From contig NZ_CAKAKL010000001.1 of NCBI RefSeq assembly GCF_916619195.1, positions 744,001 to 808,000 of the forward strand: 64,000 nt of DNA, given 5' to 3'. This document shows positions 15,109 through 50,429 of the stretch, piece after piece. The DNA is from Inquilinus sp. Marseille-Q2685. Its GTDB lineage: Bacteria > Pseudomonadota > Alphaproteobacteria > DSM-16000 > Inquilinaceae. How positions within the stretch are numbered: the stretch's first letter is position 1; each line of letters begins with the position of its first letter. Both the position numbers and the translations under genes were made by a program. Below the pieces are notes generated by a model. It was given only the letters and a program-made list of their open reading frames with translations, had not been told where the DNA came from and did no database searches.

Positions 15109-15864
15109 TCAGCCGGCGCTGGCCTCGGCGATGGCCCAGAAATCGTCGGCCTTCAGGCTGGCGCCGCCGACCAAGGCGCCGTCGACATTGGGCACCGCCA
15201 GCAGCTCGGCCGCATTGCCGGGCTTGACCGAGCCGCCATAGAGGATGCGGATGCCCGCCGCCTCGGCCGGGACATGGGCCCCCAGCGCGGCGCGGATATG
15301 GGCGTGCACCTCGGCCACGTCGGCCGCGGTCGGGGTGCGGCCGGTGCCGATGGCCCAGACCGGCTCATAGGCGATCACCGTGTTCTCCGCCGTCGCCCCG
15401 CGCGGCAGCGACCCGGCGATCTGGCGGCTGCACACCTGCAGCGCCCGCCCCTCGTTACGCTCGGCCTCGGTCTCGCCGATGCAGATGATCGCCACCAGCC
15501 CTTCGGCCTGGGCCGCCGCCGCCTTCTCGGCCACCACCAGATCGATCTCGCCATGGTCCTGGCGCCGCTCGGAATGGCCGACGATGACGTGGCTGCAGCC
15601 GAGATCGGCCAGCATCCGCGCCGCGATGTCGCCGGTGTGGGCGCCGTCCTGCGCGGTGTGGCAATCCTGGCCGCCGACCGCCAACCCGCTGCCCTGCACC
15701 GCATCGGCGATCGGCGCGATGATCGTGGCCGGCGGGCAGATCAGAAGGTCGAAGGCCGGGTCGACGGTGCGGGCCAGCCGCAGGGCGAGATCGCGGGCCA
15801 GCGCCGTGCCCTCGGTCCGCAGCAGGTTCATCTTCCAGTTGCCCGCGATCAGCTTCCGCGCCAT
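15109..15864 (-). CDS. tpiA: Triosephosphate isomerase
   Basis: 251 residues, the standard length. [14 protein letters not shown] gives the catalytic Lys, [14 protein letters not shown] the catalytic His, [15 protein letters not shown] the catalytic Glu and mobile loop, and [11 protein letters not shown] the phosphate-binding loop. It interconverts dihydroxyacetone phosphate and glyceraldehyde-3-phosphate in glycolysis. It stands alone, divergent from ppiD across the inverted-repeat element. Confidence 0.97.
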
Positions 15865-15939
15865 CGGCCTCTCTCCGGCTGGTCCTCAGTGTCGCCCTTC
15901 ATGTACCAACCCCGGCGCCATGACGCTACGGTCACGCCC

Positions 15940-16210
15940 AAGCCTGCCTGCCTCGCACCCCTTGCGCCCTGCGCCGGCTCAAAATGCCGACGGGGCAGGA
16001 GAGCGGCGCAGCGCGATGCGGTGGCATCGGGCAAGCCGCTCGACGCACCCTGTCGGCATTTTCAACCGGCCCGGAGGGTCGCCTTGCGGTGGCCGCCTGC
16101 GGGCGCGGGCCGCTCGACCGTATGTCCCGATACGCTCTTCGCGGCCCGCGACCTCATTCGACTCACCGCAAGGCGACGCAGGGCGCAAGGGGTGCGAGGC
16201 AGGCAGGCTT
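15940..16210. repeat. 271-bp element with 34-bp perfect inverted ends and nested inverted repeats
   Basis: Bases 15940-15973 (starting AAGCCTGCCTGCCTCGCACC) are the exact reverse complement of 16177-16210, 34 of 34. Inside, 15974-15996 pairs with 16047-16069 at 19 of 23 positions (AAAATGCCGAC core), and CGCGGGCCGC at 16104-16113 pairs perfectly with 16141-16150. No reading frame is convincing in it. It occupies most of the 436-bp tpiA-ppiD gap. The structure suggests a non-autonomous MITE-like element or a folded RNA; no target-site duplication is visible. The rest of the gap shows no clear feature beyond the space for the two divergent promoters. Confidence 0.7.
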
Positions 16211-16300
16211 CAGCATTGCTGCCCGGCAAGGCCGCACCTATGATGCGCCGCCCAACCGCCCGGGAGACCGGCGCGGCCTTGCCCTTTGTTTACGGTCGTC

Positions 16301-18172
16301 ATGCTGCAGATCCTCCGCCACAAGGCCGGCTCCATCATCGTCAAGGTGCTGTTCGTCCTCCTGATCCTGAGCTTCGCGGTCTGGGGCATCGGCGACATCT
16401 TCCGCAACCGGGGCCAGTCCGACACGGTGGCGACGGTCGGTGACCACACGATCAGCCTGGGGCAGCTCGACAGCCAGTTCCGCTCCGTGGCGCAGAACCA
16501 GCGGATCCCGCTCTCCGTCGCCCAGCAGCTCGGCCTCCCGCGCCAGGTGCTGGACGGCATGATCTCCGGCTTCCTGTACGACCAACTGGCCGCCGATCTC
16601 GGCTACGACCTCTCGACCGACGCGGTCGCCGACGCGGTGCGCAACAACCCGATGTTCCGCGATCCGACCACCAACCAGTTCAGCCGCGACCGCTTCCTGC
16701 AGTTGCTGCAGGCCGGCGGCACCACCGAAGCCGCCTTCATCGCCGGCCAGCGCGGTCAGCTGCAGCAGCAGGGCGTGATGCGGGCGCTGTTCAGCGGCGC
16801 CGAGCCGCCGCAGGCGCTGGTCGACCCGATCTATCGCTACCGCCGCGAGGCGCGGGTGGCCGACACGATCACGCTGCGCAACGCCGACCAGACCGGCGTG
16901 CCGCAGCCGACCCAGGCCGATCTCGAGTCCTATCACAAGGAACATGGCGACAAGTTCCAGTCGCCCGAGTACCGGACGCTGAGCGTCGTGCTGCTGAACA
17001 CCGACGAATTCGCCAAGACCGTGACGGTGTCGGAGGATGAGGCCCGCACCGCCTACGACAAGAGCCCGGCGAATTATCAGAAGCCGGAGATGCGCCGCTT
17101 CGACCAGGTGATCGCCCCGACCAAGGAGTTGGCCGACCAGATCGCCGCGGCGGTGCGCGGCGGCAAGGCGGTGCAGCAGGCGGTGGACGAGTCCGGCAAC
17201 GCCGCCGTGAAGCTGATCCCGGTCGACTTCACCGCCAAATCGGCGATGCCGATCCCGGCCCTGGCCGACCCCGCCTTCACCCTGGCCGAGGGCCAGGCGA
17301 CCGACCCGGTGCAGTCGCCCTTCGGCTGGCACGTTCTGGTGCTGACCGGCATCCAGCCGGCCCGCACCGTGCCGTTCGAGGAGGCGCGGGCCGAGATCGA
17401 GGCCCAGCTGAAGCAGAGCAAGGCGGCCGACGCGCTGTACGACGCCGCCAACAAATTCGAGGACGCGCTGGCCGACAACGTGCCGATCGACAAGGCGGCG
17501 CAGGAGTTCGGCTTCACCGTCACCGCGGTTCCGGCCGTGGCCCAGGACGGCACCACCCAGAGCGGCCAGCCGCTGCCGCCGCTGCCCGGCCAGGCGCAGA
17601 TCCTGCAGGCCGCGTTCCAGGCGCAGCAGGGCGACGTCAGCCCGATGGGCACGGTCGACGACAAGACCTCCTTCATCGTGCGGGTCGACAGCATCGTGCC
17701 GCCGGCGACCGAGCCGCTGGCCAAGGTGCGGGACGAGGTCGCCGCCGCCTGGACCGAGCAGAAGCAGGCCGATGCGGCTGCGACCCTGGCGACCGATATC
17801 GCCAAGCGCCTGTCGGCCGGCGAGGCCGCGGCCGATATCGCCAAGGCGGTCGGCGGGCAGTATGCCGAGACCCCGGCGCTGCTGCGCGACGGCAGCAATG
17901 CCGGCGCCGTTCCCACGGCGCTGGTGCGCGACCTGTTCGCCGCCCAGGTCGGCGGCACGGCGACGGCGGAGACCCCGGGCGGCCGCGTCGTGGCCCGCCT
18001 GACCAAGGTCGAGCCGGCCAAGCCCGACACCGCGGCCGAAGCCGCGGTCAAGCAGGACCTGCGGCGGGGCCTCGCGGTCGATATCGGCGACGGCCTGGAC
18101 CAGGCGTTGCGTGCCCGCTATGGAGTCACCATTGACCAGGCGGTCCTCGCCCGGCTGAACTACCAGGAATGA
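16301..18172 (+). CDS. ppiD: PpiD-like periplasmic folding chaperone (SurA N-terminal and PPIC domains)
   Basis: 623 residues. One membrane helix near the N-terminus (VKVLFVLLILSFAVWGIGDI) anchors a periplasmic protein. The SurA-N region runs from about 40 to 190 (VGDHTISLGQLDSQF, RDRFLQLLQAGG), and parvulin-like PPIC segments follow (MRRFDQVIAPTKELADQIAA, SPFGWHVLVLTGIQPARTVP). It assists folding of exported proteins near the Sec translocon. ATG at 16301 is chosen over a TTG at 16286. In E. coli PpiD isomerase activity is weak; that residue-level question is open here. Confidence 0.9.
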   Translation: MLQILRHKAGSIIVKVLFVLLILSFAVWGIGDIFRNRGQSDTVATVGDHTISLGQLDSQFRSVAQNQRIPLSVAQQLGLPRQVLDGMISGFLYDQLAADLGYDLSTDAVADAVRNNPMFRDPTTNQFSRDRFLQLLQAGGTTEAAFIAGQRGQLQQQGVMRALFSGAEPPQALVDPIYRYRREARVADTITLRNADQTGVPQPTQADLESYHKEHGDKFQSPEYRTLSVVLLNTDEFAKTVTVSEDEARTAYDKSPANYQKPEMRRFDQVIAPTKELADQIAAAVRGGKAVQQAVDESGNAAVKLIPVDFTAKSAMPIPALADPAFTLAEGQATDPVQSPFGWHVLVLTGIQPARTVPFEEARAEIEAQLKQSKAADALYDAANKFEDALADNVPIDKAAQEFGFTVTAVPAVAQDGTTQSGQPLPPLPGQAQILQAAFQAQQGDVSPMGTVDDKTSFIVRVDSIVPPATEPLAKVRDEVAAAWTEQKQADAAATLATDIAKRLSAGEAAADIAKAVGGQYAETPALLRDGSNAGAVPTALVRDLFAAQVGGTATAETPGGRVVARLTKVEPAKPDTAAEAAVKQDLRRGLAVDIGDGLDQALRARYGVTIDQAVLARLNYQE

Positions 18173-50182: not shown

Positions 50183-50429
50183 GGTCGGAAGGTCCTTTTT
50201 CCGGTTGTTCCGCCGCGGGCCTTGCCTCCCGCCGCACCGCGGATTGCGGATATGGCGAAAGGCACCGGAGCGCCCGAGCCACTGCCGTGGCAGGCCGCGA
50301 TGCCCGCGTGTGGGATTGACGACGGCGCGGTTGATACGCCCTGCGCCCGGGAAATGCAAGTCGGGCGGTTGGGGGACTTTCGCGTGCGGGAGTCACCCAA
50401 ACGCCCGGATCGGCGTCGGCGACCGCAAC

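Follow-up and report, generated by a model that had tools for sequence, protein, structure and literature searches.

The 271-bp block at positions 15940–16210 of the window (the whole stretch of 64,000 nucleotides of Inquilinus sp. Marseille-Q2685 DNA that was analysed) is very probably a non-autonomous MITE of the IS1380 type, with a Y-shaped palindromic body; at gene starts, copies of its family have a layout suited to termination–reinitiation. Held with less assurance, though still favoured, is the wider reading that the family represents a class of transposable elements with an evolved stop–restart cassette: insertion near a start would give a leader followed by a restarted gene, and such elements would live in important genes, swap their N-termini and leave a start codon behind as a domesticated footprint.

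In the proposed course of events a copy would land only a few codons into a gene, and ribosomes would start at the native site, translate a leader and melt the very stable hairpins on the way. Leader translation would terminate at the far end of the element, with re-initiation at the element's own ATG, in frame with the gene. The gene product would still be made, with Met-Arg/Gln/Gly-Ala or a similar sequence in place of the first few residues. The element would thereby settle in gene starts as a tolerated insertion and the gene may be spared, while mobility would come from an IS1380 transposase working in trans. The window copy sits in the gap between the divergent genes tpiA and ppiD and not in a gene start, beside promoter-like sequence of the right-hand gene. 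Its features are the following.

15940–16210, plus strand: whole element copy (271 bp), family member L001, without a counterpart in the orthologous gap of L009–L013
15940–15973, plus strand: left terminal inverted repeat, an IS1380-type end; the family pattern is AGCCYGCATTTCTCAC, from which the window copy has diverged
15973–16070, plus strand: inner palindrome A, whose part 15986–16057 is the stretch matching the elements of other genera
16078–16177, plus strand: inner palindrome B, inverted pairs inside the window copy
16177–16210, plus strand: right terminal inverted repeat, carrying outward a purine-rich SD-like run, plus ATG in most family copies
16201–16203, plus strand: restart-codon position; AGG in the window copy, and AGG in the left arm too
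16216–16244, plus strand: candidate sigma-70-like promoter, recognised by eye only (TTGCTG, 17 bp, TATGAT), directly right of the element
15109–15864, minus strand: left neighbour, which we take to be a triosephosphate isomerase-like gene (tpiA); start codon 75 bp from the element
16301–18172, plus strand: right neighbour, presumably a PpiD/SurA-like peptidylprolyl isomerase gene (ppiD); ATG 90 bp from the element, the listed ORF running from a TTG at 16286

The 34/34 inverted ends given in the preliminary description were recovered (15940–15973 with 16177–16210) and extend to 40 nt at 95% (15940–15979 with 16171–16210). The inner imperfect pair that it had reported also exists (15973–15995 with 16048–16070), at a measured 87% of 23 nt and not at 19 of 23. 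The third pair is present as well and is longer than the 10 bp first assigned to it (14/14, 16078–16091 with 16164–16177), and a further 16-nt pair at 88% lies within it (16098–16113 with 16141–16156). The impression of an unusually structured gap was borne out by the RNA fold of 15930–16220, at −220.1 kcal/mol (z = −15.1); 200 dinucleotide shuffles gave a mean of −140.8 kcal/mol (sd 5.3), and none of the 200 folded as well. The boundaries at 15940 and 16210 fit the family, in the alignment of whose 73 copies conservation drops sharply there. The Rfam search gave no credible match at the element, either at the gathering threshold or at E up to 5. Elsewhere in the window, an Rfam match to rpsB (RF01815) was observed at 50188–50312 on the minus strand (46.2 bits, cut-off 40).

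With AGG replacing ATG in both arms the window copy is, as its codons predict, unable to restart a gene, and because of this lost start codon the stop–restart layout was invisible in the preliminary description. Nearly the same sequence as the promoter-like stretch is found in the empty sister sites. The window copy is predicted to affect tpiA and ppiD little.

The checks proposed in the preliminary description included a search of the genome and its relatives and a comparison of the tpiA–ppiD gap in sister species. The search found a multicopy element and no single-copy sequence: in G000, the 7.29-Mb genome to which the window belongs, BLAST gave at least 26 long places of 78–100% identity, a lower bound with 40 of 123 candidates scored, and at least 15 of the 61 genomes searched had matches. 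Among the matches listed, full-length copies were present in all five sister genomes (G001–G005), nearly full copies in G017, which belongs to a different family, and shorter core matches in others. In the gap comparison, the closest orthologs of the right gene (L009–L013) were found in four records of Inquilinus and a fifth under the label Mycobacterium sp., and all five had empty sites; at this site the comparison is not independent of the flank comparison with G001–G005. In the latter the left flanks of 25 of the 26 G000 places (L129 missing) were searched, and 80 regions were fetched among the matches listed. Nineteen of the 25 sites were comparable on both flanks, the other six not, and every one of the 19 had at least one empty ortholog; at four of them (L002, L122, L132 and L003) a filled ortholog was found besides the empty one.

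The family is thus short and multicopy, bears terminal inverted repeats, has no transposase gene and has empty sites in relatives, the marks by which a MITE is known. A MITE was the first of the three suggestions in the preliminary description and is upheld by the copy number, the empty orthologous sites and the IS1380-type ends; the copy number rules out a lone palindromic integration relic.

A total of 83 places were extracted, eight weaker ones not being used, and 73 core copies were kept. L095, L096, L108, L109, L145 and the second hit in L144 were left out of the core set by name, and L129, L161, the second hit in L089 and the first hit in L103 as too short. Removal of orthologous-site duplicates, judged from the flanks (L158, L159, L169, L146, L156, L144 and L138), gave 66 non-redundant copies. 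In the tree of the 73 copies six ortholog pairs were sisters, and the placement of L003 and L138 was not resolved.

Several copies departed from the common pattern. L003 and L138/L180 share an insertion point in two genomes with the element in opposite orientation (the G001 copy being inverted), by either independent insertion or inversion through the arms. The left flank of L107 (G005:C112) matches the scpB site of L123, and the gene to the right of L107 is that of a cytochrome c oxidase assembly protein; the two loci may have been joined in assembly or by recombination of one copy with another. In G003, inverted pairs of family ends lie only 150–190 bases apart (C4:173813-173963, C27:68701-68885 and C42:28653-28839), perhaps as shorter relatives or deletion forms. 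Elements of similar size with related cores and quite different terminal repeats (AGAGCATGTTT..., AGAGCGTTTTC..., ATACCAA...GATAATGA) were found in G017, G008, G010 and G014 (L256–L275), as if one structured core rode on several end types.

A clade of 13 copies on short branches (L124, L141, L157, L126, L121, L006, L119, L005, L120, L173, L171, L106 and L146; support 99/96) mostly has ATC as its end codon, and both arms are without a start codon in 10 of its 12 non-redundant members. Gaps between convergent genes house 7 of these 12 members versus 3 of the 54 other copies (P = 1e-4, hand-counted).

The family terminus, AGCCYGCATTTCTCAC, links the element to IS1380. A plasmid search with a 30-base consensus end gave 12 records, all with weak E-values (0.4 to 5), and six of these were opened. 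Four of the six contained the 16-mer AGCCCGCATTTCTCAC inverted at both ends, about 1.64 kb apart, with CT before each end; seven of these eight ends were exact and one had one mismatch. An annotated IS1380 transposase lay between the ends in three of the four stretches (the same protein in two of the three), and for the fourth no gene between the ends was among those listed. In a Calothrix record the paired ends lay closer together, separated by about 160 bases, and one of them had two mismatches; a haloarchaeal record contained no paired 16-mer ends. The termini of the family therefore equal IS1380 ends, as represented by the three of four paired-end stretches with an annotated transposase. 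These IS1380 ends hold GTGAGAAATGCGGGCT (reverse complement of the plasmid matches); thus the ATG did not originate in the MITE, and the layout is partly inherited.

No host transposase able to act in trans was found in G000–G005, the IS1380 transposase domain PF13701 occurring in none of these and in 5 of the 23 genomes searched. The whole element had zero matches in plasmids. An autonomous partner in G000 was sought through the family ends and rejected: the 34 hits (up to two mismatches) all fell in known copies bar three singles, one of which (L280) is a 21-bp remnant, while L281 and L282 are without an element.

A target duplication of 4 bp is characteristic of IS1380. For IS1247 a DR of 5 is listed in a table (PMC3281130). 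The preliminary description had seen no target duplication, and a scan of the 66 copies at several boundary offsets gave no clear one. Junction 4-mers were identical in 8 of 66 copies and reverse-complementary in 7 of 66, and the common junctions were palindromic (CTAG, TTAA), so that duplication and plain insertion look alike.

A mover other than the IS1380 transposase, namely a REP-associated tyrosine transposase (RAYT) acting on the hairpins, would suit the hairpin-rich body, the lack of a clear target duplication and the presence of a Y1_Tnp gene in G000, G001 and G002. It is nevertheless highly improbable: Y1_Tnp was not found in the element-carrying G003, G004 and G005, and the termini match IS1380 ends. 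A RAYT as mover, and with it REP–RAYT membership, was rejected, as the cognate Y1 transposase does not track the element. The Y1/REP-associated tyrosine transposase-like gene observed at L283:1959-2636 (G000:C12) has a distribution unlike that of the element.

Pairing within the element is strongly conserved. Over 99 pairs in the 66 non-redundant copies, 98.5% of cells were paired, and both-side changes (covariation) occurred at 60 of the 99 pairs, in 605 cells. All 500 shuffles fell short on each of the five measures, and in slid versions only 37–46% of cells were paired. Among the variant cells of the outermost 20 pairs, 209 were double Watson–Crick changes, 16 G-U and 29 unpaired, which suggests that the outermost pairing is kept at the DNA level, through arm copying or transposase needs. 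The variant cells of the next 11 pairs inward comprised 62 double changes, 67 G-U and 19 unpaired, and this G-U-rich stretch fits RNA equally well. When arm changes were counted, six ortholog pairs gave 7 one-sided and 2 two-sided changes and 13 hand-picked paralog pairs gave 29 and 34, respectively, a contrast only suggestive as to whether the arms are corrected at transposition or in place.

These data bear on a structured regulatory RNA, which would be retained at gene starts because it works in transcripts as a switch or processing site, its mobility being secondary. The very stable fold, the paired cells and 605 two-sided changes that no shuffle equalled, the many G-U pairs in the inward stretch of the outer stem and a core common to other genera whose ends differ would all agree with such an RNA. 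It is very unlikely, however, in view of the empty sister sites at 19 of 19 comparable places, the absence of an Rfam match at threshold, the 209 to 16 ratio of double Watson–Crick to G-U cells in the outermost 20 pairs, and the presence of copies beside many unrelated genes.

The MITE reading with a stop–restart layout draws on the position of the start codon relative to the adjoining genes. ATG occupies the restart-codon position in 85 of the 132 family ends, behind the purine-rich SD-like run. On every side of the 66 copies where the flank was 300 bases or longer, the three outward frames were scored by a codon model for which the window had served as training sequence. An outward gene passed the threshold on 47 sides, and 32 of the 47 shared the frame of the codon situated ten bases from the element end, versus one third expected (binomial P = 1.2e-6). 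ATG or GTG stood at the restart position on 30 of the 32 in-phase sides (L139 and L148 have ATA), as against a start codon (ATG or TTG) on 10 of the 15 out-of-phase sides (P = 0.03). The frame was open from ATG/GTG into the gene on 29 of the 32 in-phase sides, L002 meeting a stop; L127 (tilS), just below the gene threshold, was added as the thirtieth restart copy. The next in-frame ATG or GTG into the flank was at a median of 56 bases in the 29 restart genes versus 10 bases in the 15 out-of-phase ones (P = 0.0008), the latter being expected for genes that kept their own start. In L104, L147 and L162 an in-frame GTG within 20 bases of the junction is a possible alternative start.

The predicted leader was traced from the other side. 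A native start candidate lay at most 33 bases upstream in 29 of the 30 restart copies, L140 having none, and in 27 of the 29 the native-start frame crossed the whole element and stopped at +8 or −6 of the restart codon, a copy with several candidates being counted if one fitted. Stops were at +8 in 22 copies, at −6 in five and elsewhere in two (L127 and L163). The +8 stop, ATGCRGGC|TRR, is built from the last bases of the element and the flank, and the −6 stop is TGAGAAATG; every one of the five −6 copies measures 269 nt, a length that brings TGAGAAATG into frame. In a frame-fixed test with no choice of start, 27 of 30 used ends versus 21 of 102 others had the leader layout (P = 5e-12), a test partly non-independent because the used ends had been picked by phase and start codon; the failures among used ends were L089, L127 and L163. 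The junction stop also occurred at 48 of the 102 unused ends, as a CTAG/TTAA-like target would give.

The preliminary description had noted no coding sequence. This stands for the window copy, which has no gene, but not for the family, as the leader frame is open through 52 of the 66 copies, the other forward frames through 36 and 38 and the reverse frames through 5, 34 and 13, against 26% of shuffles per frame. SD-like pairing was equally strong at used and unused ends (−9.88 versus −9.89 kcal/mol) and only slightly stronger than in shuffled sequence (−9.14), a result that does not support selection on the SD; before the native starts it was weak on average (−5.66 versus −4.71 shuffled, 27 starts).

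Five further, distant copies were inspected. The +8 layout was found beside a coding frame in L096 (G014) and in L108 and L094 (G017), L094 being counted also among the 30 restart copies; L095 and L109 had no coding flank and no +8 layout. The 21-bp solo element end at L280:3001-3021 (G000:C2:1066663) is homologous on both flanks (83–94%) to the sites filled in G002 (L165) and G001 (L144). A frame of 141 residues that matches the L165 protein begins at its ATG, and the leader from the native GTG stops at +8; L280 is probably a decayed copy of the element.

An ordinary MITE with survivor bias would account for part of these findings: gene-body insertions would have been lost and gene-start insertions would have survived by a chance ATG, the leader being open by chance in GC-rich sequence, with no coupling. 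The ATG already present in the IS1380 ends (GTGAGAAATGCGGGCT), the equal SD strength at used and unused ends and the two other forward frames, open in 36 and 38 of 66 copies and hence above the 26% of shuffles, agree with this explanation. We consider it unlikely, if far from negligible, since 52 of 66 copies have an open leader frame, against the same 26%, the leader stops fall at +8/−6 in 27 of 29 copies with the 269-nt copies switching to the other stop, and the 21-bp remnant L280 retains both start and overlap.

The stop–restart layout also agrees with comparison of the restarted genes with empty orthologs. At 10 of 10 G000 restart sites (L127 included) the native protein body matches and the N-terminus is replaced; in each case the closest native start is found upstream of the element, separated from it by 3–14 bases, and past the first few residues each protein agrees with its ortholog. 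The remaining twenty restart sites, outside G000, were judged from sequence alone. From the empty ortholog to the restarted gene, the N-terminus changes from MGRLKVGVLISG to MRVKVGILISG in PurN and from MIARRALFLV to MQARRALFLV in a lipid kinase.

Two 45-residue N-termini gave nothing against NCBIfam, and longer stretches were therefore used. Fifteen of the 30 restart proteins reached the curated cut-off, among them PurN, PurM, D-Ala-D-Ala ligase (ddl), ornithine carbamoyltransferase (argF), TilS, RapZ, chorismate mutase, ribokinase and YbgC. Among the matches listed, 11 of the 30 were below cut-off only (including ScpB, HdaA, HisZ and CCA nucleotidyltransferase), some of these proteins ending at the locus edge and hence being partial, and four of the 30 (L091, L133, L136 and L165) had no match. 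The copies thus adjoin many unrelated genes, and several of the restarted ones are essential in other bacteria.

If the stop–restart reading is correct, a mobile element can enter the starts of important genes without destroying them, rewriting N-termini and start sites and creating operon-like leaders. The family would then supply about thirty natural tests of how translation is coupled across very stable hairpins, and would call for caution in annotating gene starts.

In kind the element appears ordinary, an IS1380-type MITE; the new part would be the translational stop–restart layout, of which no description for inverted-repeat elements was found in searches of one open-access library. Correia/NEMIS and ERIC are likewise small palindromic repeats near genes with terminal inverted repeats (PMC2229807), and no overlap of start codon and leader stop is described for them in the portion of that source available. 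Rickettsia palindromic elements are palindromic and mobile and add an open frame to genes (PMC10969869, PMC2229807); as described there they are in-frame insertions translated within the protein, whereas here the gene would restart, with the leader in another frame. With IS1380 and IS-derived MITEs the element shares the same 16-base ends and CTAG-like junctions, again without a transposase gene of its own; it differs from the IS1380 sequences in its body, a double palindrome of about 270 bp and no transposase.

The nearest precedent for the layout is that of the mycobacterial MIRUs, which are shorter and are not known to have terminal inverted repeats. The element, by contrast, has a Y-shaped palindromic body between 34-bp inverted ends of the IS1380 type, carries its restart codon within the inverted repeat itself and has an alphaproteobacterial host. 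The likeness, drawn by layout from sequence alone, lies in the insertion at start codons, where MIRUs are described as inserting with an ORF coupled to the gene (PMC12548453). If true, the stop–restart reading would carry the MIRU idea beyond the mycobacteria, into an unrelated lineage and to transposons with inverted repeats.
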